A stretch of DNA of 64,000 bases from Tubiluchus corallicola (taxonomy: Eukaryota; Priapulida; Priapulimorpha; Priapulimorphida; Tubiluchidae). The notes under the pieces are model-generated. The model was not told where the DNA came from, did no database searches, and saw only the letters and a list, made by a program, of their open reading frames with translations. Shown here piece by piece: positions 5,453 through 56,300 of this stretch. Within the stretch, counting starts at the first letter, position 1. Each line of letters starts with the position of its first letter. The position numbers and the translations under genes were made by a program. The DNA lies in NCBI GenBank assembly GCA_030141605.1, contig JAQGDQ010002372.1, forward strand, positions 372,001 through 436,000, given 5' to 3'.

Positions 5453-6042
5453 CAATCTTAAACTGTAGATCAAAACAATCTAATCTTTAAAATATTGAAG
5501 TAAACATACTATTTTTTCAAAAATGACTTACGTGAAAGAATTATTACCACACAAACACAATTTCGCGTTCGCGTTCGCGCCACTAGTTCCTCATCGTTGC
5601 ATGCATTTCGCCATTCGCTAGTTAGACAGGCACCAGTGCCTGCATCTCGGAAGCGCATTGCACAAAAAACAGATGCTGTACTTCTCAATTCAGATGTATT
5701 AGTTTGTGACGAACTACACACGTTCGACAGCTCATGCGTGAGCACAGCGGTAAATCTGAAATTTTAATTTTTTATATTAAAACTTGTCTGATTTTAGTAC
5801 AACACACTGAACAACTTACAGTAGCACTGTACTTCAATTTTCGCTTTTGCAAACACGTGCAACACGCTAATGGAATATTTTTGCTGTTGAAAATTGTTAG
5901 TTAAAGATGTCATCAATAGTTGGTCTCGCCCACCATTAATTAATTATCAGAAACGCTTTTGCAGTATTAATTGTGTTAAAATGTGTTTTTATTTGACTTG
6001 AAAATGAGGTAGTATATGAAAAATCATCCTGTCTTCCTTTAA
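5453..6042 (+). repeat. Dispersed repeat of unknown family, copy A
   Basis: Shared blocks with 49657-50053 include AGTACAACACACTGA, TGCAACACGCT, GAATATTTTTGCTGTTGAAA, GATGTCATCAATAGTT and a final ATCCTGTCTTCCTTTA-like block, in the same order and orientation. Copy A carries about 150 extra bases (roughly 5530-5755) that copy B lacks. No coding capacity, long TIR or LINE tail was recognised. It is a non-autonomous element (SINE or MITE) by inference. Confidence 0.75.
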
Positions 6043-9400: not shown

Positions 9401-12400
9401 TTTTTCATCAGTTTTTGCAGTGTCAAAATTACTCAGGTGAATTTATTATTGTCATTGCCGTTGTCAGTAGGTTTGAACCGTAGGATAAGCCAGTTATGCT
9501 TGCGTGGCGATTTAATGAAACATGTAGAATTGGGTTCAAGTAGTCAATCGCCCACACAGAAATTCAAGACATGGTTCATGTGTTAGAAATATGGCTCAAT
9601 CACACCTAATCAACATTACGATTCATGTTGATTAGTCTATCAGTTGTGTTGGAAGGTAAAATTTAAGTGCCACATGCACAGCAGCAGCGAAACTACGAGC
9701 TTATATTCGTAATTAGTTGGCAACGTCATATGGAACACACACAGAAAAAAACCAAAAACAGTGCAGCTTGCAAAGTTTAGCTGAGGTTAACGTAGCCACT
9801 ATAGAATAAAATGTCTAGTTTCTGCTTAGGTGTAGGCTAGGCGTAATAAGCTTTGTAGTAAATACAACACCAAGAAAACGTGACTGATTAATGCTGACCG
9901 GCGATTTTTCCCAAATGCTCACCGAAAACAAAACATAGCGCTAAGTATGGAAGATTCTGTTCAAAATCGGTCGTGTTAAACAGGCCCAATTGGGGTAAAA
10001 ACGAATAATGCACAGTAGAAAATCTAACAAAAAATAAACAGAAAATAAATGGAAAATATGCGAGCTACAGTAGTTACGCACACAGCTTCATCAAGACGCA
10101 TTTCTACTCATTTTGTTTTAACACAAACTGGGTTTTGCTGTGGCAGTGAACCTTTCTCGTGTTTTAATTTTCAGATGAGAGTTGATTAAACGCGCATTTT
10201 TAACAAATTAAATTCCAAACGTTAAGCTGCGTATTTTGTACTAAATCAGGTCTTCGTGAATTTAGTTCAGCTTGTTTTGTGTTAAGTTAAATACGTACTT
10301 ATTGAATTAAATTCCCTTACAATATGCTGTTATGCTGCACAGTGCCGAAACTATTGATGATTGGGCATCAAAACCGACTTACCATAGACCTTGAATCTCT
10401 TAATTAAAGAAAGCTGTGGACAGCTTTTGAGAAATAATTAAGCCAACAAATTTTCTCGAGTATTTTGCTTGTCAAAGGGTGCTTGATGAATTGCAGAATA
10501 ATTGCGAGTGTTTTTTAATTTTGCCGAAGACTTTCGGTGTTTGCAAGGGGTTGTTCTGAAGGACGCAGAGGTCGAGTTTTTCTCTTTCTGTACGTTCTAG
10601 TTTCTGTTCTATATAATAAATTAATAATAACGCCCAATATTGCTCGTGGACTATTATAGACGTAAATTAATGCTTTTATAGTCACTTGGGCTTTTATAAC
10701 TCATAATATCTTTTTATTTGCAGGCGGTTTTTTGTGTTTCTTAATATATACAAAGCTATAGTTTCAGGCAAATTATGTTAATCCAGTGTTGCTGTTTAAT
10801 TCGTTCTGTGTTCTTTTAATTGATCACCAAGTAGTTTTTAGCTGTTAATTTTTATAATTTTTACTGAGACACGGCCTTTTTCATTGCCAAGATAACAACA
10901 CATTTTCCTGTTTGCAGTCATGTTCAGAAAATTACGTATTATTCCGCAGTTGCCCTTGAAGGTGATGGGTTGAGAACTCAGTGGATAGTTCTAAGTACTT
11001 TTCTAGAAGACAAGCTTGAATAATAATTTTCTCCTTAGTTTGCACAACGTAATGAGTTAACTTAGGCCACAAACTGATGATTATAGTCGAAAAATGTAGG
11101 AAAGCGTAAAAAATTTTAGTGGTGTCGCTGCACAAGTTAAACCTACCATGCTTTCGTACAAGACTTAAATTGCAAAAACTTCAATTTTAATATCAAAGAA
11201 ATAACCAAAACCCTAATTTATCTAACATGTCTTTCTACTACGTATGAGCTCTCTTTTTATTAATATGAGGTGATACAGAAAAATATGCTGAACTAGACTG
11301 CAATACTATTAGAAGCAAGTACCTTCAAAGTAGAAATTTCACAGCATACTGTTACAATACATTTATTTTTGACTGTGAAAGTTACAAGTTTATAATTTTT
11401 GTAATTTTTAAGTAGTAGCCGAAAAGCTTTTGCATATTAAAAGTTTACATGCTGGAACAGATAATCATCACCAACTGAAAAAACCACGTTGGTGCATAAA
11501 TTACTTCATACGTGTCAGCAAATTTATAAAGAAATCAAGTCTAGTTAGTCAATTAGGTTATATCCAATAGGTTACACACATGTCTTCACTACAAAAGACC
11601 GATATTAAAATTTTGTTATCAATAAAAGTAGGACTTGATCGCCTAGACTACGGTACCTGGAATCCCCTTGAAGAGAAAGTCAAGAACAGTCGCACAGAGC
11701 CGTTGATGCGCAGGAAAAATGCAAAAATTGTTTTGAGTGCTGGCCTCTACCTCCTTAAGGAAGTGAGAAACTACATCAGCTGTTAGAAGAAACGCCTTCG
11801 TCTAGTTTGTATTGAAAATAATGGACACGTAGGCACTGCTGTAAATTTTAGCAGTAGCGACATACAGTTTTTTCTTGCCACGTTGTTTTGACACGTTGTT
11901 TTCAAGCTTCTGCGTCTTTGGGAAAATCTAAGGAAATAACCTGTTTATAGGTAATCGTCTGTAGCGTTAGTGTGGTTATTGTCAAATTCCGGACATTTTA
12001 TAGCGTAGTACATATGTCTCAGAATTGTCCCATTTTTTACTATTTAAATTAATTCTTTGAGATTACACAATCATGATAAAGTAAGGCGCTTTAGCTTGAT
12101 GAATAGAGTTAAGCGTACATTTTCTCTTAATTTGATTATAGGAACGAAGTAAGAGAGGTCACAAATATAGTACAAAAACGATATCAGTGTCACAAACTGC
12201 AAACATGGGTAATAACTTTTCCCATCTCTAGTGAGTTGTTTACACTAGTTATTGTAATAATTACTGGTTCCACGTATTGTATGTGGATTAGGATATGCTA
12301 TTGTTCGTCATTGTGTTAGTGGCCCCCATTTCATCAGTAATCCTCAGTGGGTTTTGCTGATATAGCTTTAGTAGCCTACCAAACTACCTGTATTATGTGT

Positions 12401-16468: not shown

Positions 16469-19400
16469 TTTGCGGGCTCTGCATCTTCACAATAATCATC
16501 TCAGTTCTCTACCAAGTGAACTTGCCAACATGAAGCAACTATCTGAACTCATACTGGCATTCAACAGGTTCAGCGTTCTTCCTGAAGTCCTAAGTAGAAT
16601 GAATCAGGTATGTAATGGCATTTTCGTACGTCGTACGTTTTCAGTCTTCAACTGATATTAAGTCGGTAATTTAATAGGTTACTTTTACTGATGCACCCAT
16701 TGTTTCATTAATGAAAAATGAGGCCTAATGAATGATAATAATGATTATGATTATGTTCTTTAGTTTAGGTTATATATTTCTTGGTAATTAGTGTACGTCA
16801 GAAGACTAATAGCTCTAAAGATCTGATGACTTATTGATCAGGTATAAAGTTTCTGCTAAACTGGTCTTAAAGAGTGCCGTTTCTGTGTAGTATAGGCTGT
16901 GTAACTCATTGCTTTGAGTACCACAGGCTGGGTGAATGATATTCTATATTTTAGAACTTCTAATATCCAATTCTTCTTATTGTTGTTGTTGTCTTATGTT
17001 AACTGGAACTGGGAGTGCATTTTATGAGAATAAATAACAGTGGGAAACTTCAGTGACTAATCACTTAACCGCTGTCGTGTGCCAAGTATGTATCCAAAGT
17101 GTGACCTTTATAAAAAATAAGATCTGAGCATGAGAAAGATGAACTAATTAGTGACTTAGAAGTAATCGAATATTCAGAACATCAGATCTACCTATAGATG
17201 TACATTTCCTCAGATGAATTGTGATTAGGATTATATATGTACTTTTCAGCTCGATAACATTGTAATGACGGGCAACTATGTGGAGCGATTACCTGGTGAT
17301 ACTGTGTCTGGTCTTAAACATGTCCAAAAGGTGCGTATGTCATTAGTTAGCCACTTGTCATTTTGTTGTTGAGGCATCCTTAAACACGAATAGTATTTAA
17401 TAGTTTCTAATTACTTAATTTTTTATTTGCAGATGGACTTTAGGTTAAATTGCTTGACCTTGCCTCCAGTGGAAACCATGACATTTGAGCTGTTAGAGCA
17501 TTTAACACATTTGGATGTTAGTCACAACAGGATTACGAATTTAGATGTGCGTAATCTGACTGCTCTAGAATATCTAAACTGTGAACACAATAAACTGGTG
17601 ATGTTGCAAGTCTCCGGACAAAGTCTGAAACATATGCGGACTGCCCATAACAGTAAGTTGATGGCATAACATCCCACGACTCAAAATCAGTTGTGGTACT
17701 TTAAGTAGCAATTTCGTACTGCCATTGTGTTTTATAGTATAATTTACTTGTTTGTCTAATGTTTTTCAAGGCCTTTCTTTTCTAATAGTGTAGGATTTAA
17801 TTCTTTCCTCATGCAAAGGTATTTTAACTTTATTTGTTTTATCAAGGCAAAATGTGCATTTTTTATGTAAGGTAACGTGATACAAGTGAGTATCCACCGT
17901 ACAATGGCAATTTAAATGATGTTGTGAACCAAAAAACTGTTCATTGGCAATTATAATCCTCTTAAGATCAAATTGAATTGGCAGGGATGTATGAGATGCA
18001 TTATGCATTCTCCTCAGCAAGAAAAATGGTTGGTAGATAAAACCATCCGGAAACAATTTTTCTTGGTGATCACTCATCCATTCACCAATCAGGTGCAGCC
18101 CTGCAAAACCTTGGTCGCTATTTCCATATTATAGCCACTCAATTATTTCTCTTGCCATACAATCCAGCTTTTCTTTCACATAGTGTTAAAGGAATGTTTG
18201 CCTGTAATTGTGATTTCAAGGTGGAGACCAGGCAGTCTGTTACAGCCAAAAGTGGTTAAAAGACCTTTCTTTAATAAGTAAATACAGTGCTCCAGATTCT
18301 TTTCACATATTGTGTGAAATGTGTTCTGATTGCCGTTGTACTTGTCTATTACTTTTTCCTGTTAACTTTAGGAAAGTGTTACGACATTCCTTTTGCGCAT
18401 GTTCCACTCTTTTGTATTATCACAATTCATTAGTGAACAAATATTGTACTTGTAATTTTTTATTTTTTCAGGTCTTCAGAGCGTGTACATGACCCCACTG
18501 CCTGAAAATTTACGGATTCTAGACCTCAGTCAGTAAGTGTTACACAAATTTGCTGCTAGCTTTTCTAAACACTTGGTACAGGTAGTAGAATATCAATCTC
18601 TGTATTTGTCGTTAAGCTTATGGAACTTATTAACACTTGCGGTCGTATTTCTCAAATTCTGGGAACAAACATGTTCGTTTAATAACTTAATAACTGTTTT
18701 GCAGTCTACATATAGAGAGAGTGCTCTTTATTGCTTAAGTTTATCAAAGTAGCTGATGTTAGGCATTGCTCACTGTTTCCATGTTGAGGCTTTTATTTTG
18801 TAAAATTAGGCAGCTTTCCAACTCATTTTTAATGTTATAATTTAATGAATTTAATAATGAAAGCCAGTTGCACAATACCTTTGAACTTTGATGTTTTGAT
18901 TTTTTTCCCATTTAGCAATGAACTAAACAAATTACCAGAGTGGATTTGTGACTTGTGGAGGCTAGAAAAATTATTGGCACGACACAATCGATTGTCCATA
19001 CTTCCAAACAGGTTTGTTTTACTAGTGAAATTTTCCTGAAACTTTTGCCTCATTCGGTTTGCCTCACTAATTTTTTATCCTTGTGTTGCTACATGTGCTC
19101 TTTGCATTGAGAAGAATAGCAGCTAATAGTGTGGCTTATTGTACAGTAGGCGCATCTTGATAGACTCACTTTGAGATGGAAGTGTTTCAACCCAAGTAAC
19201 CAACTGATTCAATTTGCGGAAGTGTGTAGCCTATTACTGTTATAGAAATATGAGTCATCATCACTCATCACCTTAGTATGCATTCCAAAGGCTTTAAATG
19301 AATCTTAGAAACTAATCAAAATTCCCATGTGCATTTATTTTAGAATACTAATTTATATAAGTGAATTAATAAAAAAAATTTAAAATCGCATGAATCTGAT

Positions 19401-22400
19401 TATTACCACTAAAAGTTACAAGAATTTTTGCACGTTTGGTTGCTTCGTTTCTTCATGCAGGTTATGAAATTCTCATACTGATATAAACATGGAAAATTCA
19501 CGCAAAATACCTAGTCACCTAGTGCTTGAGCTGCAGCTGGTGATGACCTTGTTTCCCTTGTGAAAAGCAGCGCGAAATTCAAAAGCAAACCGCTGGACAA
19601 ATGATTAAATGTTTAACTTCCAGAAATAACGAGAATAACTGCAGCGGGTGACAAAACAAAACCACTACGTTAACTTATTAGCGCATATGATAAGCGCGCT
19701 GTACCTGCTTACAAACAAAGCTGTACGTAACATCCTGTACCTGTACCAAAGCTGTGCACCAAATCTACGTAAAGATGACATAAAAGCAGTAAAAGCTCTT
19801 TGGGCACACACAAGTGTCTTATTTTAAAATGAGACGTGAAAGAAAAAGTATTGAGTCAGTTATGCAAAGGAGTCAATTATTGACAGTTTTTATATACATT
19901 TGAATATGACCGGCTGGTACCAGTCGTTTTTAAGTCAAATAGGCGATTGGTTCTGTTAAACGAGAATTAAACTGAGTTTAATAAACTGAAAAATAAAAGT
20001 TGCAGTTATTGTTTAAGGAACAACTATATTATTTGACATACTGTATTTCATTCAACCTGCTTTAAAGATATTCAATTAGTTCTCATTCACACCTGGTTTA
20101 AAGCTAATAAGTTATCACTGAATATTGAAAAATCTAAATTTATTGTATTCACATATAAAAATAAAAGAATCCCTAGTAATCATACAGTAAAAATCCCAAT
20201 AAATAAAGTAAAATATACTAAGTTCTTGGGCATCATCATAGATGAACACCTAACTTGGCAAGAACATCTTAGATTTATCGAAAGCAAAATCTCCAAAAAC
20301 CATAGGTATTATATACAGAGTTAGACACATATTGCCTGAATCAGTACTTGTATTATTATATAATTCTCTTTTTTTACTATATCTTAATAATTCAAACATT
20401 ATTTGGGGAAGCACATACACCAGTCGATTGAAAAAAAATTCACATGATTCAGAAGAAAATAGTGTGAGCTATAACATTTGCGGTTATCAGGACAATACAC
20501 AACCAATATTTAAAAGTCTAAACATTTATGACATTAATAAGTTCCAAACTTCCATTTTCATGTACAAATTCTCTCATAAATTATTGCCACCCTTATTTAC
20601 TGATTATTTTTGTTTGAATGCTGAGATACATAATTACGGTACACGATGTAGACTTAACTATCACTACATACAGTGCAACACAAATGTTAGAAAATTTTCT
20701 ATTAAATACAATGGCCCTTGTATATGGAATTCAATTGCTCCAGCTATTAAAAATGCCAACACGCTGTACATATTTGAAAAAAATTATAAACTAAACTTGC
20801 TTGAAACATATAACTGATCACTCAATCATGATTTGTTGTTTTTCATTTTCAAAAACTTCCCCTCTAGTATAATAATATTTTTATTACTTCCCACCCTTAT
20901 ATATATCTGCAATGAGCACCTCCATATAGTCTAAACAAGTGTTGCCTCCTCCACAAATGCTTAACGAATGTGTTAAAGCATTTATCATTTCTCTGTACCG
21001 ACCATCAGTTTACATTGCAGTTATGGAAATTATTACTACTAATGCCCACTGTAACTCACACTAGCCATTAGCAATATATTGTAATTTTTCTCGTAACTAA
21101 TTTTAGTGGCCTAGCATAAGCTAGCTTCTCGGGTCTCTAGTGCAGAATTCATGAATTGTATCATAATTTTGTATTAACAAAAACTGATTATCGATGCACA
21201 TGTAATGCATATGTATATGTTTATTGCGAAATAAATCTACTGAATTGAATTGAAATTTGTTTTTCTGTAGATTGTTGTGTAATATGGAGAATCTTAAATT
21301 ACTTATGGTTGATCACAATCAGTTGACTGTACTTCCGGAATGGGTGGAAAACTGTATGATAGAAACTTTGCATATAGAATACAACAGAATTGCTCACCTT
21401 CCTGACAACCTGCTTGTTAACTGTACAAAGTATGACATTAGTCACTATTTTTAAGTAAAACTAAAAGTTGGTAACTCCTCCTCATATAAAATATGTTCTC
21501 AAAATAAAGTTTTAAGTTTTGACTACCAAACTTTAACTTTTGTTTTTAACCCTTTCACTATGGAAGGTGGCACACTGCTGCCTACGTTTTTCTTGTAAGG
21601 GACGGAAGGCAGCAGACTGCCACCCAAGCTCAGTACTAACCGCAGGTCTGCAAAACATTAAAGAAAAGTTTGACAGCCTTGGGGTTACTTTGAAGCCAGG
21701 TACATTCCACAATACTGTACTGCATAGTATGTTCCCACACGCAAAATTACTTGTAGATCGTTGATGAAATGTTAGTTGATCACTTGACAAAACAACTGAT
21801 CGTATATTTAGTTGATTGTTCTGCATTCTTATAAAATGATTGCATATTATGAATAAGTATTGCGTCTTTTATGAAAACTGGTTTCTAAACATAAGTATGT
21901 GCTTATTTGTGTGGGTGTGCACGTATGTGTGCGCATGTGTATAAATAAGACTAATATTCAATATTACTGTTTAATGACAAATAGCTGTTTATGTAGAAGA
22001 TTCTGTTTAGAACGCACCACAAGAAGTTATTGTCAAATGTGCAAAAGCTGATGTGGCCCTGTTAATAAGCAAGTACGTAGTGAAAGGGTTAAAGTTTACT
22101 TTGAATTCTTTTGTTTGCTAAGCTGCTATTACACATACGTTGGGTAACTGCTTTTATCAATGTCATTTTGGTCTTGCAGGTTGCGTATTCTCAATGCTAC
22201 AAACAACCGGTTGACACATTTTCCACCTCTAAACCAAATACAAGACTTGAACAAAGTGTCTGAACTGTACCTCTCTTGTAACTACTTAGTAGATTCAGTG
22301 TTTGAAGAAGTCTGTGAATATCCAAGGTTGAAAATTCTGCATATGGCATACAATGACCTACAAGAGATATCCCATGAGTAAGTATTCTAACAACTGCTTG

Positions 22401-25400: not shown

Positions 25401-28400
25401 AAGAAATAAAACGACACAATGATTATATATTATAAGATGAAAAGGCTTTATTGTAGAGAAAATGCAGAAAAGAAAAACGCAACAAGTATGGCCATTTCAG
25501 TTACTGCTAAGAATATTCTGCTGAATATTTGACTAGATGCAGTTTCCAGTTTAATGCACTACTTGAGTTTAAACAAATTAAGTGAGGTTAGTAATAAAGC
25601 ATTGCTTTATATTTTAGGATAATAAAGTGAATGGCAATACAGAAGCCACACGTCTGTTAGGTTGTAGTTACCTGTACCCGGCTGTGGTTCCTGATCCTCA
25701 CGTCACTACCGTTACACTGCGACATGATGATGAGCTTATCATCATTGCTAACAGTGGAGTCTGGCAGTATGTATCATACGAGGAAGCTGTGGCCGAGATT
25801 AGAGAAATTCAAAACCCGGTTCTTGCAGCTAAAAAGCTTCAGGTAGGAATATACAGTTGCATTTCAATATTTATAGAAATCGGGGAATAACGTAACATTT
25901 ACCTAAATTATGTGTGAAATAAATTCTGTGACACTATGGCATTATTCAAGCATTATTTCTAACGCATATTGTACAACATGATACTCATTGTATGTTTTGC
26001 ATGTTTTTTGTATACCTATCAGGCAAAGATCAATGGTCGCATGAAACCGATGAATGCCAAAGAAAGGGGGAAAGAGGTCAAATAAATTATAGATCTGTCT
26101 GTCAACATGTAGAGAAATGTACTTTTGAATGGCCATTTAAAAACTATTAGATTTTGTAAGGGATAACTGGAAGACTTCATTGGTTCTGGCAAAATGAAAT
26201 CACAACAAACCACAAGCTCAATTCAATGAAAAATTTTACTTTTTACTCCAAATCTTCTAATAAAAGTAATGAGTGCTTGATTGCCTAGTAGAAACTGGTG
26301 TGTTAACTTCAGCAGCCATCACATCTAAAATGTAGAAAGTGGCATATAACATCATATGAATATAATATGTTTTTATGTCATAAGAACACTATAACTATAA
26401 ACCAGCTTACTTTGAAAACTTCATTCATTACTATCACTATTTCAGGATATTGCACAGAGTTATGGATCAAAAGAAAATCTGAGTGTGATGGTAATTCGAC
26501 TCAATCTCAGTTTGTCTGTAACTCAGCGCCTTGTGCGCAAATATCACCAGAGAGGCTGTCATCTCAGTTATTCCACAGTTAATGGATCAAGATCAAGTTG
26601 TAATAGGTAAATGATGTCTTTACCACAGATGTATGGCAGATTTCAAGTTAAGAACATTCACTGTAATAGTTTACCAATGTGTTCTCACGAAAGTTATGCT
26701 AGAATAATTGCAGTACTTGTACTTAACTGGATAACCAGTTAATTATAGTTCTTAAATATTAGAAAAATTGAAAAAGACTTTAAATTTCGCAAACTAGTAG
26801 TATGTATATAATATATATATATATATATGTTAATGAATGATGATTGATTGCTCCTGTTTTTACAATATATCACTAATTTCTTTCAGCATAGTCTCAGTGA
26901 AGTCTAATGTTTCTCATGGGCATCACGGACATAACCAACGAAGATCCGATCAATCTCCTCGAACTAGGTGTGGAAGCGATCACGTTGTACATAGGCCTCC
27001 ATCTCGTATGAATGGTTATGGAGGCCATGGCTTTACAGAAAGTGAACCCAGAATACCTACCAAGGTAACATGTACTGCTTATTGAAGGAAAGGACAAATC
27101 ACCTAGCATGTTGGTTTTTTTTACTGGTATCAGTGAAACTTAGAAATATCCAATGAAATTTCCAAAAAAGTTTTAATGAAATACAAAATTAATTTATACT
27201 GCCACAGTAATGATATTTTTGGGTGCAGTGGTAGCTGCCATTCAGTTGAAATTTTCTTACTTTTGACGGAAATTGATGATGCGCTGCTTTTCTTCAGATG
27301 ATGAATGACGTGATTAGTGGAAGAAGGGGCGTTCAAAATGAAAGTGCCAACGCTTGAAACGATCGCGACTTTAAAGAGATTTTACTCTGTAACTCTGTTA
27401 CACATGAAGCTTATCGTACTTTTATTACTACATCCTTCTAACATTTTTCGTGAAAGTTGAAATAAGGTTAACTTCCCAGGAAGCTTGACCATTCCTTTAA
27501 AAATAAGTTTCCAGTCTTGGTATTTGACTATTAAGTCAGTCACTGTTTGTTTATGTCATATAACAGATCTGAATTACTTTCCTGTCTTCAGGAATATGGA
27601 TAATGTTTTCAGACAAAAGTATATGGTAGTGTTAATTTAGGATAAATTTCATTGCCATCATCGTGCAGTCATCATTATTTTTTGCAAATGAGATTATATC
27701 TGTTTCACCAGAACTTAATATTTTATCTTAGGCATTCTATGAATCTGAAGAGATGAGGATCAAATCAAATGATGACTTTGCTGAAAATGGAATTTCATAT
27801 CGGCGTATTTGCCATGATACTGTGGACGACGAAATTGCTGTAATACCAAGTCAATTGTCTTCACATTCGCTCACAAGAAAAAGTCAAAAGTTGAAAAATC
27901 AAGAAGGTATAAGATGTGTACGGAATAGAATTCTCATCACATGACAGAATTATGAAATTATCGATTGCCTAATTCAAGCTTCCTGGCACCCTAAGGAATG
28001 ATCTATGTTTTGATTTTAGTGTTCCTCTAAAATTCCTCTATGTTCCCCTGCAAGAATTTACTGAATTAGCATGTTATGTAATCCTTAGATGGACTTAGAA
28101 AACATAGCCAGGATATATATTTTTGGTACTTCAGTAGGCACCGCTTAATAGACTCACTTTGGGACCGAAGTGTTTTGACCCAATTAACGTACTGAACATA
28201 TTAACCGATGTGTGTAGTATTACAGGTATAGAAGTATGAGTCATCTGCTTACTATGCACTGCAAAGGTTTTTAATGAATTTAGAAATGAAATAATGCCTA
28301 AATTCCTTTGTGCAGTTAAAAATTAGAAAAAATATTTTTAAAATATTAATTTTTATAAGTGAATTAGCAATATATTAAAAAGTAATCTTTTTGAAATCAC

Positions 28401-29546
28401 ACAAGTCTGCTCATTTGCAAAAATTACAAAAATTCCTTCAAAGTCGGCTACTTCATTTTCTCGCGAAGAAGTTGGCCCACAAAGTTCTTGTAATTATAAA
28501 AACGTTGACAATTTGTTGTTGTGTGTGACTAAAACAGTTCTGAATCGTCTACTCACTTACATTGCCCATATTTGCTGCACGACGTTTACGTAAGTCACAA
28601 GGAATATCAGCTGATTACTGCACCTGCATCTTTGACTGTTAACTCATTAAGCCTGAAAGCGTGATTTGCAACGAGAGCATCAAAAGGAAAACGCTGGGCA
28701 AGTGCATAAATGTTTAGCTTCCAGAAATTCGAGGTTAGCGTAGCGTAATAGTGCATGATAATCGTACCTGCTTATAAACAAAACGGTACTTAACATGATT
28801 GTTTCTGCATACATAGTGCACAAAACGGAAGTAACGGTGGCATAAAAGTAGGAAAGGCTCTTTTGGCACCTACAAATATCTTATTTTAAGTAGGTGAAGG
28901 AAAAATATTGAATCAATTATACGAACTTATTTGAGTCAGTTACCGATAGTTTTTACGTATATTTGAATTGAAGCGCCCGTTCCAACCGTTTTTGAGTCAA
29001 TTAAGTGATTGACTCTATTAACCGTGAGTCTATTAAGCGGCGCCTACTGTATAAAAATTTATTGCAAAGTACTTGTAACGCCATCTACTGATCAAAGGCT
29101 CAAAGCTGATAATGCTTACTTATAAATTGGCTGCTCAGCTAAGTCAATAGTCACTGTATGCCCTAAATGTGTTGTAATAATCTAATATTATAGTAATCCT
29201 AGAATCAGTGGCAATGTTAATCAAACTTACAGTAGAACTTGTTTTATTAATAGGTATGCTTTCAGCTAGTCAGACTGAATCACAGAGAGATGAGCAACTG
29301 TCTGAATCACACAGCAGCAACACCACAATTGGCAAATACAATTCTTGGGACTTTCTTCCAGAAGATCAGCAGAACAGCTCAAAGCAGATGCTGGCACGAC
29401 CTATCACACCTGCAGAGAAACAAGCTTTGATGCGTAACACAAAGATCTCTAATTCAAACCAGCTGCTCAATGGAGAGTATGAAAATGAATCAGTGCATCC
29501 AAAATCTGTCGTCACAACTGTAAGCTTTACTGACACAAGATTGTAG
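16469..29546 (+). CDS. PHLPP: PHLPP-type phosphatase: LRR + PP2C + PDZ ligand (5' partial)
   Basis: PHLPP proteins dephosphorylate the hydrophobic motif of AKT and PKC at membranes. Seventeen exons join in one frame: 16469-16607, 17250-17330, 17433-17652, 18472-18532, 18916-19011, 21271-21429, 22180-22377, 22488-22650, 22812-22942, 23095-23223, 23412-23603, 24608-24839, 25618-25842, 26446-26606, 26887-27064, 27732-27906, 29254-29546. They give 943 visible residues. Residues 1-415 are leucine-rich repeats (for example LRALHLHNNHLSSLP and LRILDLSHNELNKLP). Residues about 446-705 are the PHLPP-type PP2C domain, with GMFDGGR, ITEDNKVNG, RLLGCSYLYP, AAKKL and AQSYGSKEN. Residues 706-943 are polar and low in complexity, ending TDTRL, a class I PDZ ligand like the DTPL/DTAL tails of the vertebrate proteins. 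The first exon begins inside a codon; the PH domain and earliest repeats are missing. As recalled, the vertebrate proteins have Asp where this one has the second Gly of FDGGR. The last acceptor could instead lie 12 bases downstream. Confidence 0.92.
19144..19990 (+). mobile_element. Pogo/Tigger-like non-autonomous DNA transposon, copy 1
   Basis: It starts TA|CAGTAGGCGCATCTTGATAG and runs collinear with 28132-29049 over most of its length. Shared blocks include ATAGACTCACTTTG, GAAGTGTTT, AGTGTGTAG/ATGTGTGTAG and ATGAGTCAT, then a subterminal CGTTTTTAAGTCAA-like block. The right end is diverged, so the boundary near 19990 is approximate. The CAGT ends and TA target suggest the pogo/Tigger branch of Tc1/mariner. 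No transposase is present. It lies in a PHLPP intron. Confidence 0.65.
20040..21254 (+). mobile_element. 5'-truncated non-LTR retrotransposon (reverse transcriptase C-terminus and 3' UTR)
   Basis: From about 20090 the translation reads WFKANKLSLNIEKSKFIVF, then KVKYTKFLGIIIDEHLTW, the post-catalytic part of a CR1/L2/Jockey-type reverse transcriptase. After a frameshift near 20300 a longer frame (20332-20817) continues with LLYNSL, NIIWGSTY, FMYKFSHKLLP, HNYGTR, FSIKYNGPCIWNS, the usual C-terminal order in these elements. A UTR follows and ends in AAATAAATCTACTGAATTGAATTGAA, a microsatellite tail. The catalytic FADD block is absent, so this is a dead-on-arrival copy. The tail ends 16 bases before the PHLPP exon at 21271. 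Confidence 0.85.
21550..22088. mobile_element. piggyBac-type MITE flanked by TTAA
   Basis: CCCTTTCACTA at 21550 is repeated inverted as TAGTGAAAGGG ending at 22088. TTAA flanks both sides (21546-21549 and 22089-22092). TTAA target duplication with CCCT...AGGG ends is diagnostic of the piggyBac superfamily. Just inside the left end, 21566-21582 and 21608-21624 form a second, 15-of-17-base inverted repeat. No transposase is encoded. It sits in a PHLPP intron, 91 bp before the exon at 22180. Confidence 0.85.
24238..24316. mobile_element. Tiny pogo/Tigger-like MITE
   Basis: The left end, CAGTTGACCTCGGCTATAAC, and the inverted right end, CAGTATAAACCGTTAATAAC, pair imperfectly, and both continue into CGAG. 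The two ends almost meet, so the 79-bp unit is essentially two TIRs. TA follows the right end; the left flank is not TA. It lies in the PHLPP intron before the exon at 24608. Confidence 0.5.
24480..24540. repeat. 12-bp perfect inverted repeat in a PHLPP intron
   Basis: TGATATAGCTGC at 24480-24491 pairs exactly with GCAGCTATATCA at 24529-24540, with a 37-base loop. It could be a small transposon remnant or an intronic hairpin, 67 bases before the exon at 24608. Confidence 0.7.
26811..26828. repeat. (AT)n microsatellite
   Basis: A short uninterrupted AT dinucleotide run lies in the PHLPP intron before the exon at 26887. Confidence 0.85.
28132..29049 (+). mobile_element. Pogo/Tigger-like non-autonomous DNA transposon, copy 2
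   Basis: The left end CAGTAGGCACCGCTTAATAG and the right end, read inverted as CAGTAGGCGCCGCTTAATAG, match at 19 of 20 bases, and both continue into ACTCAC. The right flank is TA; the left flank is TT, so one side of the target duplication is eroded. This copy of about 918 bp is collinear with the one at 19144. It lies in the last PHLPP intron and ends about 200 bp before the final exon. No transposase frame is present. Confidence 0.8.
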
Positions 29547-44300: not shown

Positions 44301-47300
44301 CCAAGTTGTTGTCGAAGCCATTGAATGTTCAGATTTTTTATATCTTTCCCATCAATCATCTAGTTAAAGTTAAATATCATTAGCAAAAATAGCTAGCCTA
44401 GATTATGATGAATCAAAGACTCGATTGACCGTTGCTACCTTTCACTGCTTTGAAATTTTTTGGAGGTTTTCTTCCCCTTTATTTATAAAAACTAACCTCT
44501 AAATATTTGTGAAAAAACCATCAAATTGGAAACTGTGGTAACTTTCCTGGCCATTTTTTAATTATTAATAATTTCATTTTTGCTCATTTGAAGAAAATTA
44601 TTACAGTGTATATTAGTTATTGGAAGAAAATTATTACTTAGCTTATCCAAAATTTACAAGTTCCAAAGTTTCCAAGAATTTGTTTCTGTTCACATTAACA
44701 AAGATGGGCTGATATGCCTTTAGTTGCATAAAACCAATTATACAAATAATAAGCAATTACATACAAACAGTGCAGTGTTCTGAAGATTAACTGTCAATTC
44801 ACAAAGATTTTTGCAAGGTTTCATGGCTTCCTAGATACATCCTTCTTCAAGCTTATTCTAAGTTATAGACTGGGAGTCTGGGACTAAAAATGACATATTT
44901 ACCCGATATTTAACTAAACAATACTAGAGTTTACATCCTTTACAACATATGCAGCTCACCACTTGCCCTTCTAGAGGGTCATAAAACCTCTCCAACAGCT
45001 GCACAGTAGTACTCTTTCCACAGCCACTACTACCAACTAAAGCCACCATTTGTGACGGATCAATAGTCAAGTCAAATCCAACAAGCACTGGCACATCTGG
45101 GCGTGATGGATAGTTAAAGTTGACTGACTTAAACTGTATTCTCCCAATACAAGTACTCTAAAACAATGAACAGTGAACATTCAGCATTCGAGTTCATAAA
45201 CATTGTTACAGTAAAAAAATATGTAAAATTGCAATACAGTTCTGAAAAAAATAAGGTCAACAGTTTCACACGCACTGTACTGCAAGTATCCGATGATCGT
45301 TAACAAGTTGCACTAGCGGCTCAAGCATATTGAATAGCATTAAATTTTCACAAAAAATAATCTATACAAGGAAGTAATACATTGTCATTTAGACAAACAA
45401 GCTTTCTTATTATCTCTTCAAAGGTGTAATCCTTGAAACTTTGATAAAAACTTCATTGGTGTTTTCCTTTCAAATAAGATTAATGAAAAAAACTTGGGCA
45501 GAAATGTTTATTAGAAAATACGATCCTGAAAAGATTCAACAAAAAGCACCATTTCCATTTCCTTTTCAATCCATTTACTAACCTGGCTCAGCATTACTTA
45601 ACTTTGGTTGCAAAACATATGCTATGGCCATTTTCCTTTTCACAAAATGTCAAAAAGTTACTTCTTTTATACTGATGATCAATTGTACAGCTTACAGGTT
45701 TTTCACCATCAGGAGATGAACTATCAATCAATGGAACTCGGTCAAATAAATGCAAGACTCTCTGTGAAGAAGTTTTAGCTTTGGCAAAGTCCGGTGCAAA
45801 GCTGCTGGCCTGACCCAGTGACATTGCTCCAAACACAATAGCAGAAAATACTCTAAAAGCATTAAAATAAATTATGATACAGAACTTATCAGGCAGTCTC
45901 ATTTATGGCACGAATTTAATTTGCTCTGTGCATGTTGGCAAAATAGACAACAAAACTAAATTTTTGTTTTTAGTTTAAAAAAAATCATTGTTTAAATCAA
46001 ATAAAAGAATACTTATTTGTACAAATCATCTAAACTATTTTTGATAATCTATTTGAAAGCACTTACTGACTAAAAATATAAGCAAGGAAATAACAAAGCA
46101 TGCTTATCAGCTCTACATAAAATTGGCCATACGTCTTGACAAGTAGTTAACAGCTGTTAACTGTTTCAAAAAATGCCATTTCAGATTTTTGAAAGAATGG
46201 GTATTCCTCCATTCCTTTTTAATCAACAAGTTATCAGCATGAAGTCTGTTTCAGGATTTTAACTTACCAAGAGAAGCATCAAAAACAACATATTTTATTT
46301 TTAGGATGATTTTCAGGAAAAAACTCACCAATTTCTGCACAACTCTGGATGCAAACTTCAAACACTTGTATGTATGTGCAAAGTATTTGTAAAATTTAAG
46401 CCACTCACTTGAAAACCTTTTCGTAGTCTAAACCCTTCTCTTCGATTAGCACTGCACCATAGTAGAAGCAAGCAGAATATGCAAAGAAGATGATACCCTG
46501 TGAAAAGCTGAATGCTATACCGTACAAATGACATCGGATCATTGAATTCCTGTTGGTTCAAAATAGCTTTATTGTAGAATGAATTAGCTTGCCAAATGCT
46601 TAAAGAACGGGTATTGCACTGTTACGACATTAACAAGGCTGAAAACTTTTTGAAATTTTAACAAATCAATGCCTTACAAAACAGCCCAACAATTTTTATA
46701 ATCACATAAAACAAACTATATAAATGAAAAGATCAGAAAGTACAAGTGTATCAAAAATTAGGTAGACCACAATAAAAATACATTCTCCTACTTTCCAGAA
46801 ACTGCCATAACAACATAAGTATGACATTATTGCCTAACTAATTTCCAGAACATACTAGGAAAAGAAAACTTGGCATTCGTGGCATACAAGCTTAATTAGT
46901 TCAAACAACTGCTTTAGAATTCCTCAGCTTCGCTTTAGAAGACCCGGAATTAATCCTCGGCCCAACAACAACAACAACAACAACAACAACACGCGCACGC
47001 ACGAGCACGCACATGCACACACACACACACCCTACCTCACCGAAATGAAAAAAATGTAAAACAAATCTTTGCTTTCACATGTTGATCATCAATACAAAGA
47101 TTATATATCTAAATGGAATATGAAGCCTTGACGTGTCCCTACTGTGTTCTACCTGTCATCAAACCAATCATGACAAAAATGAAAAGTGCAAAAAAAAATC
47201 TTCTTAATTTTGATACAACTACATACTTAAATGGAATACGAAGACTTGAAGAATACTGATTGACAAAATGCTTCTCCTTCGACAATGATGCCACTGTTCT

Positions 47301-50300
47301 GATGTTATCTATTCCTTCTGTAGCCACCTTTAAAATAATTGTTCATACATTAAAATCACAAGTAAATGAGCAAGGAAATAAATGAAAATTTAATTGTGTT
47401 TATTATGAGCTTCAATAAATGGACTTTGGCACAAATGTGTCATAAGAAAAAGAAAAATCTGAACTTTCTTGAGAACTCCATTTATAAAAAATCAACACAA
47501 CCGAAAAACAAGGAAAAAGAAAGAACACAACATTTCAAATTCGCACTGTAGTTTTTTCAGAACAAAAACGTGACCACAGTAAGCACTTGTGATTTTTTGC
47601 TCTTTTTGGCCATTTTTGCTCACCCGAAGAATTGCAATGCTAGTTTGAAACATTGTGTTCTTTCTTTTTTCCTTGTTTTTAATTGTGGGACGTTTTATTT
47701 CATTCTACTATTCTTGTTCTCAAAAATTGTTATCTGCGTTATGAGAGCTTCAAGCTTACACGTCCACTGTTCTCTAATGCATCCTTATCAAGATGCGCAT
47801 TTCCTGCCAACATTTTCATCTGTAGTACACCACCAAGCATTATAAAAGGTGTGAAAGCCAGAATGACCAGCGTGAGTTGCCAGCTATTAGAAAAAGCTAT
47901 AGCTAATCCACATGCAATACTAGCAAATCCGTTTAGCGTGGATCCGAGTCGTGCTCCTGTTGCCTGAAAATATAAAAATAAGCATCATATCTTCATACAG
48001 AAGGCATTATTACTGTGCCTACAATGTTAATGGCTGTTCTCTTATATTAAGAATAATGACCGAATCGTATATATGCCTGTAATGTGACATCACTTCATTA
48101 TAGTATAAACCTGCACAGAATGTTGGGTGATTATAGTGGAGCAGTAATTACAAAAGTAGCCGACTCAAAAGTCATTGATTTACAATATTTCATAACAACA
48201 AATTGTTAAACTGAACACTTATAAATTACTTCAGGTTTGCACATCATTTCTCACATTAAAGCGAAATCTAGAAATTCTGACACAAAACTCCAACATAATG
48301 AATTATACCATGTCATCTAAAAAGATCAAACATTCTTAGAATTAAAATTTCCTTCACCTCCAGTTTAAAATTTGTCAGAACAATTAAACAAAATTTACCC
48401 CTGAAACCTACCAAACAATACATCTTAAGGCAAAACACAACACATAAGCGTTACTTACATAGCTACTTGTCAAAAAGGCACCGAAAAAGTAATAGCCATA
48501 CTGGAAGTTAAGAATAAGTTTCAAATGGTGACACAAAACAAGAACAGCTTATGAAGCTGATCTCCAGGACAGCAAACACCATGAAAACATATTATTAATG
48601 ACACAATGTTTCTTAAAAAAAACCAACCCCCTGAACATTAGACGCATCAGTAGCAAGACGAGTCATGAGTGCCCCCACTGTATTCTTCCTGTCATCAAAC
48701 CAACCAATCTCTTGTCTTAGCATTGATGTGAAGCCCATATAACGTAATCTCTTAGTCAAGCTTTCTCCAGATATGCCAAAGAAATACACCTATTTTTAAA
48801 AAGTTAAGAAATTAAGTATTTAAGCAACGGCATCGACAAAGTCTTCTTAAAGAAAGAAAGAACTTTAATAGTATAATGAAATAACCCAATTTCAATTGAT
48901 TTATAATGCTACAAATACACTACAATGACTAAAAATAGTTGAAGAATCAGAAGCATAATTCCTAGAAAGCAACACTGTTTTGCTCAATGAAGAATGTTTA
49001 CAAACATAATTTAAACATTAGCTGATTAGAAAATATGTATTTGATAAGAGCAAAGGAAATTTGAGAATCTACTATTAAATACAGGAAATGTCCAAGTATT
49101 TCATTTTTTACCTGTAAAAACATAGTGGCTCCAGCTGCAATTCCAACGAGGAGAAAAAGAAGTGCATACCAATTGGACTCTTTTTCTTGCTCCTCTAGGT
49201 CTATGATTGAAAACACCTAACACATTAAAAATGCAGTTGATTTACTTCACTTTTCACATGATAAGCACCAAACGACTTTTCACCATAAAACAACTGTTCT
49301 GTGAATCCTGTAACAGAATGCCATCAACACAAAATGTGCTACTAGTTAAAAATGAAACATTAATGTTTGCATAAACAATCATCAGTCATACCCCAAGCAC
49401 TTCTGCAAAAAGGACAGCAAATATAGGCATAATAGTTCCATTAGCCATCGCACAGAATGTTCCCACAGCGATGAATGGCCACTCAGGAGAGTTCAACTTC
49501 ATCAGACGTAGTGTACTTGGAGGAGGGAGATCCGACACATCATCCTGTGGAGAAAAGTGAAATTCTCTTAATGCAGAGTGCAAAAGCTTAAAATTTTGAA
49601 AACATTTACTGCTGTCATGCCTGAAGTCAGGTGTGAAGTCAGATCAGAACTGGACTCAATCTTAAACTGTATGTCAAAACAATCTACTCTATGAAATATT
49701 GAAAGAGAACACAGTATTTTTTCAAGAATGGCATGTGTCATTGACTTCTTCACTTAATTTAAGAAAATCTGAATTTTTTTTAAACTTGCCGAGTTTTAGT
49801 ACAACACACTGAATCTCTTCAATCTTCCCTTTCATAAACACATGCAACACGCTCGTTGAATATTTTTGCTGTTGAAAATTATGTTCGTTTGTGATGTCAT
49901 CAATAGTTAATTAATTAATGCCATTAATTAAGATTTTAATCTATTTTTTAACTATCAGTAACACTTTTTCAGTATTACTGGTGTGAAAATGTATACTTTT
50001 TACTATTCTTAAAAATGGGATAGTATAAGAAAAATCAACCTGTCTTCCTTTAAACATCTCTCTAAAAAGACAAAAATGCATCTCAATCGTAACTTATCGG
50101 ACAGGTGTAATTATTAGCAATTTATACATGTAAAATCATCTATGTGATAAACAGGTAACTAAAAGACAATAAAACCATGAAATAAACTCATGCCTTTCTA
50201 CTCATTACATGCAAACTGCTTAATGCTTGTAAAAATTTGTGTCCTGCTTATTATCCTGCTGCAGTACAAAATACTTGCATTTTCTGCATTTGCAAACCAT

Positions 50301-53300: not shown

Positions 53301-56300
53301 GGGTGCCCATCAACTGCTGAGGGATTTCCAGGTTTCCAAACAGCTCTTTATATTAGAATGAAAGATATAGCTAAACAATGCTTCATTGTAAAAAGGCCAA
53401 AATAAAATATCAGCAATAAATGACTCAAATTTGATGAAACTCACAATAGCAATAATAAAGACTCTGATTGTATAATAGTAAAAGTAACAATACCGAACCA
53501 TTGATGGTGTCATACAATCGTTGTATGAGTTGCACAACTGTACTTTTTCCACAACCACTTGGACCTACCAGTGCCACGGTTTGTCCATTCTCAACTCTCA
53601 AATTCAGACCTTTCAGCACCTGAGGCACAAAATAAAATTTGTAGTTTAAAGTTTCATTTTCTCAATAACTCTCAACCCAATAATAGCAAAAGGGTTGTGC
53701 AAAAATTAAAAAAATGAAACCAAACCAAATCCAAACTGAAACTTTCTAAATATTGTAATGGAAATTTTGCAAGCATCTGAAGTAAATTTACAATTGCACA
53801 ATGTCGGTCTGAGCCATTTTAAAGGCTCATCATAAATGCAAATGGACTGACTTGCCAAAACGTGAATTAGCTGTGTTCAATCTACTATAATAATGAAATT
53901 ATGGGGTCTTTACAAAGTAAACCGTGGACTGAAACTGTGGCTCAGTGGTCAACTGGGCTTGGTTTTTGCACATCCCTAATTAGTAATGTACAGGTAGTTA
54001 AAAACAGTACAATGGCATACTGATGCACAAGTCATGACATAAAATCACAAAAATGGTAAATCGAATGCTAACAGGAAATATTTTGAACTTCTAAAGGAAA
54101 TATTTTGAGCGAAGAAAGCTTTAACAACTAACCTTTACATCAGGCCTAGACGGATACTGAAAATGCACATCCTTAAATTCAATATTCCCTACAATATTGG
54201 AAGGTTTTTCACCTGATGTAGATTGTGAATCTATGACTGGAACCTATAAATAATAACACTGCCATTATAACTACTAATGAATTAAAAAATATATCACTGT
54301 CAGCAAAGCAACATTCATCACATGCAGTATACTTAACCTAAATAATACTTTTGAATGTTGATAAGCTAAATCACTTATGAGACTGCTCAGTCATTGTTAA
54401 AATGACATGAATTAGCTTAAACTATAGACATTTGCACACGCACTCTATAAATTTTGACATTAAGGAATGCATTAGTCTCAACAGACATCATTTTGATTTT
54501 TGGGAGACAATACAATATACATTTCTAAAACCACAAAAATACTGCCAACAACATCATTCTGGTAACTGGGAATATTAGTTACAACATAAAAATACTTGCA
54601 ACAAAAGTCATTAATAAATTAATGATTCACAAGACAATCACAACATCTTTGCAACTCAAGATATTACAGCAAGCCCTGCAAATATAGTCATAACACTTTA
54701 ATCATGTCTCAGTGAGTATATGTGGTCAGTATAAGAGAGAACTTTTGTAAATGAAAAATAATTTGTAATAAAGTGGTAATAAAAATATCCTATATGAAAT
54801 GGTATGACAATACAGATCAGTAAGCACTACCTGAATGACTTATCAAGAAGGAACATAAAGTTGCAAGAATTGTCTCACAGATGAGTTAAAAAAGTGAAGT
54901 ACATAATTATTTTGAAATATTTTTGAATGACAAAAATCAGCTCCAACTGACACTCTTTAACTTAAAACTTTGATTTGCCCACCCATAATTATCACCACAC
55001 CACATATCGGGTATCTGGGGCTATTATACGAAGAAAAAATGAAATTGCTTAGAAATTACCATACTGGATTAACCATAGGAATGTGCATAAATGCCAGAAG
55101 TCATTCCCTTAGATTCTTTTAAAGAAACAGAAATTTAAATCAGCAAGTCAAAAAAACAAATGCCATAAAATATTTTGTATATCTCCATTGTTAAAATTAC
55201 AAGTGCTCACATGTCCATCATTTTCAATGCAAACTAGATGAAGGCATTTTTTTCCAACAGCCGATATACCTATTACTTCTTTATGGAATATCTAGTTCCA
55301 GCACTTAACAATTTTTGCTTTCAATTTTTCTGTATCAAACATCTCTGTGCAACTTTGGGTACACTCTCTTTCAGGAATTTCAGATACCACAGTCCAGAGG
55401 ATTAAGTCCCATTTTTTCCTAACAACTTGACAATAAATCTTTATTGGTGTGTTATCTTTTGTGGTGAAAACCAAGATGTAAACTGTTTAATTTCTTTGTT
55501 GTTTTGCTGCAATTTATTGAATGCTTTATACATGAATGTGATTGTTTTTTCAATTGATGAATAGCTGATATTGTGCATTTAAATTTTTAACATACAAAAG
55601 CTTTTCGGCTACAACTTAAACTTAAACATCGCTAAAGCCAGTGGTTCCCAAAGTAGGGGTAAATTACCCCCCGGGGGTAATATGGTTTTTTTGGGGGGGT
55701 AACGGGCACCCCTCCGAAAATTTTTAAAACTTCGCTCGGAATGCATTTTACGTAGTTTTCTTCCAAAACAATACAACAACAACACCTGGAAATTTATTTA
55801 TGTCACGAGCAAACATAAATAATTTTGCTTGCTTGTGGCATATACGTGTGTTTGCTTTTTGAGTTGGAGATGTAGTACTAGGTGGGGGGTAATGGACACG
55901 ACCGGGTTTCCCGATTTGGGTAACGGTCCGAGAAAGTTTGGAAACCACTGGCTAAAGCCAAAAATATGTAGCTCTCACAGGCAAAAGTTAATGTATTGTA
56001 ACACCATGAAATTTCAACTTTTTAAGGCACTTGCTTCTAATGTTATTGCAGTCTCAACATTGGCCCATTTCTTCTGTGCCACCAAAAATATCTTAACTAC
56101 TTCTCTAACATTGCAATTAGAAAATCAGGAAACTTGTCTAATTTATCAGCCACAAAACTTAAGTATTTAAAAACAATTTAGATTAATTTATTAAGCTTCA
56201 AAATGGTAAATCTGGAAAACAGAAAATGTAAATTTCTGGAAATAACTTAACACACCGTGTCTATTATCTCATACACTTTTGAAGCTGCACCTCGTGCATT

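Follow-up and report, generated by a model that had tools for sequence, protein, structure and literature searches.

The ABCB1-type transporter gene of Tubiluchus corallicola (animal P-glycoprotein type, minus strand) carries, in the intron behind one of its exons, a net insertion of 118 nt that is probably an old, neutral product of template switching or patchwork repair at the DNA level. It is made up of 54 nt of intron, about 40 nt from the interior of one exon (A) and 24 nt from the end of another (C), and the product reads, in coding order: end of exon C and intron, piece of exon A, end of exon C and intron again. Judged by its sequence, the unit is a direct tandem duplication of the exon-C end together with its following intron, with the exon-A piece lying between the two copies. 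The preliminary description had reported an intronless fusion of two exon fragments; the fragments are real, but they form only the visible half of a larger 118-base duplication with a templated insertion.

Host gene and exon-derived pieces

All positions are those of the window, that is, the whole 64,000-nt stretch of DNA analysed (C1752:372001-436000), and all the features of the gene lie on the minus strand. Exon A occupies 48628-48789 (162 nt, AG/GT borders, open phase), exon B 47760-47963 (204 nt, intact), exon C 47227-47327 (101 nt, intact, with a donor, GTATGT, that looks working) and exon D, the next after C in coding order, 46409-46549. The four exons join in phase with AG..GT borders. 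The protein of the joined exons, which falls in the second half of the transporter, matched P-glycoprotein chains with an E value of about 1e-89, and a Pfam scan of stop-containing frames, with stops read as X, returned ABC_tran pieces only. The borders first proposed for exons A and C were right, both exons being phase-correct and of ABCB1 type, as was the statement that the exon between them, here B, is skipped.

Comparing the whole window with itself, we observed that 47133-47170 is identical at 33 of 38 positions to 48669-48706, a 38-base segment internal to exon A (BLAST E 4.5e-5). The exon-A-derived piece at the duplication junction spans 47133-47172, and the list of matches from the whole-window self-comparison held no further short exon-to-intron match of that kind. 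Abutting this piece, and in the same orientation, 47102-47131 is identical at 25 of 30 positions to 47220-47249, a source that comprises the last 23 nt of exon C (47227-47249) and its splice donor; the derived piece (47102-47132), whose donor has decayed, retains 20 of the 23 exonic positions. The best ungapped score of the exon-C piece against the gene was 20, as against a maximum of 15 among 123 control 31-mers taken elsewhere in the window. The reported junction of an exon-A fragment with a fragment of the exon-C end is thus borne out. The exon-A piece and the exonic part of the exon-C piece have each diverged by 13%, and the whole exon-C match by 17%. Such similar values are as expected if the two pieces arose in one event, and divergence of 13-17% marks the segment as old, rather than as an assembly join of identical pieces.

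Both joins are intra-exonic: the match to A breaks off with 41 nt of that exon remaining, and the match to C sets in 78 nt into it. The trinucleotide TCA is common to both sources at the A-to-C join and is accompanied by one extra G; at the intron-to-A join no clear microhomology is visible after decay.

The duplicated intron and its surroundings

The preliminary description had proposed a search for longer matching flanks, and this extended the duplication: the exon-C match runs past the end of the exon, through the donor and into the intron, and some 54-55 nt of the intron behind exon C are also duplicated, in register with the exon match. The first intron copy (47173-47226, 54 nt), between exon C and the exon-A piece, is homologous to about 47043-47108, the second copy, which follows the duplicated exon-C end. 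The alignment (47226-47173 against 47108 to about 47043) is gapped and T-rich and ends with AAGATTTTTTTTTGCACTTTTCATTT against AAGATTTGTTTTACATTTTTTTCATTT. Anchored at the exon end, the continuation scored 31; controls from the gene region had a mean of 8.9 and a maximum of 29 (0 of 294 reached 31), and among random segments of the whole window 4 of 600 attained that score. The unanchored local score of 39 was matched by 14-44 of 2000 dinucleotide shuffles (p about 0.007-0.02). Taken by itself, the intron alignment would be of moderate significance; it becomes persuasive because it keeps register with the matching exon sequence. Direct observation covers the pieces, the order and common orientation in which they lie, and the duplication of the intron. 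Just downstream of the second intron copy in coding order, a (CAA)n run is followed by a CA/CG-rich simple repeat (46963-47032).

In its present state the exon-A piece contains an in-frame TAG (AAG to TAG), the reading frames of the A and C pieces do not agree, and the duplicate donor has been lost (GTATGTA to ATATATA). Since the original exon C and its own donor are intact, the 118-nt segment is most likely inert, non-coding intron, and the sequence suggests no extra exon here.

Genome searches with stretches of 181 and 81 nt, and one with the 25-nt junction that tolerated up to 3 mismatches, found the segment only at its own locus, on six contigs. The DNA search also missed the 87%-identical exon-A source and is thus of low sensitivity for short, diverged copies. 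The uniqueness of the junction at up to 3 mismatches indicates that the source is not a dispersed repeat or a paralogue. The six contigs (C1752, C1831, C1974, C2072, C2074 and C2107) carry the region in both orientations. In the five other than that of the window, 10-kb stretches are identical to the window sequence, and probes from close to either end of the window are identical on all six contigs, with the same spacing across 62 kb. These copies look like redundant assembly or identical haplotypes; as the assembly looks redundant, we do not count them as independent support. The comparison of alleles that had been proposed therefore returned a single version, with the six contigs identical wherever tested and no other allele among them.

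The intron between exons B and C contains an imperfect palindrome (47504-47680; arms of 61 nt, 75% complementary) that belongs to a dispersed MITE-like family, of which the genome contains dozens of copies, 73-85% identical. Fork stalling and template switching may, according to a published proposal, be promoted by palindromes (PMC2583991); to link this element to the ABCB insertion would be speculation. Elsewhere in the window we observed three pairs of dispersed repeats with 68-72% identity (5759-6042 and 49765-50053; 11407-11940 and 55100-55620; 19144-19965 and 28132-29027), and an open frame of 161 amino acids at 20332-20817 whose sequence looks, on impression, like the terminal part of a reverse transcriptase protein from a non-LTR retrotransposon.

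Origin of the insertion

The history that we favour would begin with the end of exon C and the following intron being copied, during replication or break repair. About 54 nt past exon C the growing end would have quit its template and found a new one 1.5 kb off, within exon A, where it re-annealed and was extended by about 40 nt. It would then have gone back to the exon-C end, beside the shared TCA and with one extra G, and copying would have proceeded through the donor and the intron; the gain of the stop codon and the loss of the duplicate donor would belong to later decay. We infer that the polymerase switched in one single event. Serial slippage/FoSTeS/MMBIR and polymerase-theta-type patchwork repair are the candidate processes, and either fits all the pieces in one event. 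Each inserted piece matches nearby DNA, including non-coding DNA. Of the mechanisms named in the preliminary description, template switching and non-homologous repair fit best, while a spliced intermediate is rejected: the joins are intra-exonic and the intron was copied as well.

The statement that the arrangement cannot come from simple tandem duplication holds for a single step; it does not hold for two, since a tandem duplication of about 1.5 kb, running from the middle of exon A across B and C and 54 nt into the following intron, gives exactly the same final sequence, duplicated intron included, once the second copy has lost the stretch between mid exon A and the end of exon C in a later internal deletion. 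The TCA at the deletion join would suit a microhomology deletion. We nonetheless consider this history unlikely, if worth keeping in view. Its intermediate would have carried exons B and C a second time in the mRNA, 305 extra nt, a number not divisible by 3, so that the frame would have been shifted and the gene broken until the deletion occurred. Loss of the whole 1.5-kb copy would also be expected more often than that particular internal deletion.

The RNA-based explanations fare far worse. That an exon-skipped transcript, with C spliced directly to A, returned to the locus by way of reverse transcription would account for the transcript order of the pieces and the absence of exon B; a splice product, however, would read ..GTTCAGGGG|GTGGCTACAG.., whereas the actual joins are at the intra-exonic positions given above, the copy continues into the intron and not into exon D (anchored score 31 for the intron, at most 7 for the exon D continuation expected of spliced RNA), and the piece has no trailing poly(A) tract. 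As the joins lie inside exons and intron is included, we regard a spliced intermediate as very improbable. More improbable still, in our view, is that unspliced ABCB pre-mRNA was reverse transcribed, with the reverse transcriptase jumping from exon A to C, and that the product recombined into the gene's own intron; if true, this would mean that RNA served as the template for local repair in an animal germ line. That the segment is a decayed alternative exon, or the remnant of a nearby paralogue, would agree with its exonic derivation and its position near exon C, but is highly unlikely: the in-frame TAG, the mutually out-of-frame pieces and the missing donor argue against an exon, and protein identity to the next paralogues is mostly 58% or below (one stretch of 37 residues reaches 70%), with the junction, at up to 3 mismatches, found in none of them in the genome search. 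Nor do we give any appreciable weight to assembly error, which the preliminary description had named beside a paralogue as a possible explanation, or to chance similarity. The presence of the region on six contigs of a redundant assembly might raise the former, but misassembly would join identical sequence and these pieces are diverged; chance similarity is excluded by the self-comparison BLAST, the anchored-score controls and the 31-mer controls.

Template switching or patchwork repair, the reading we prefer, has documented counterparts. Serial replication slippage is known at small scale (review, PMC2583991), and with slippage/FoSTeS/MMBIR the ABCB insertion shares the serial joining of short nearby pieces, a short shared sequence at a join, and sizes within the range of tens of bases to kilobases. 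Most of the known cases are disease alleles of recent origin whose joins are exact, whereas the ABCB insertion is old and decayed and its microhomology is only partly readable. Tandem duplications with templated insertions have been documented in C. elegans helq-1 (PMC8654963); with the 'patchwork' insertions of polymerase-theta end joining, our case has in common a direct duplication whose size is at least about 100 bp (here a period of 118 nt), a templated insertion at the junction (here about 40 nt from exon A) and minimal microhomology, and it differs in the distance of the exon-A template, about 1.5 kb. Processed or partly processed retrocopies resemble it in having exon pieces in transcript order with one exon skipped, but differ from it in that here the joins lie off the splice sites, intron is present and a poly(A) tract is absent.

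The ABCB insertion is therefore an ordinary mutation of an already known kind, and we attach no broader consequence to it. Because the duplication fell in an intron, the coding gene was left intact, and what persists is a fossil, still readable, of a complex duplication on a small scale. It provides one data point on intron growth and on the silencing of duplicate splice donors, and it illustrates that apparent 'fused exons' can arise by DNA copying alone.
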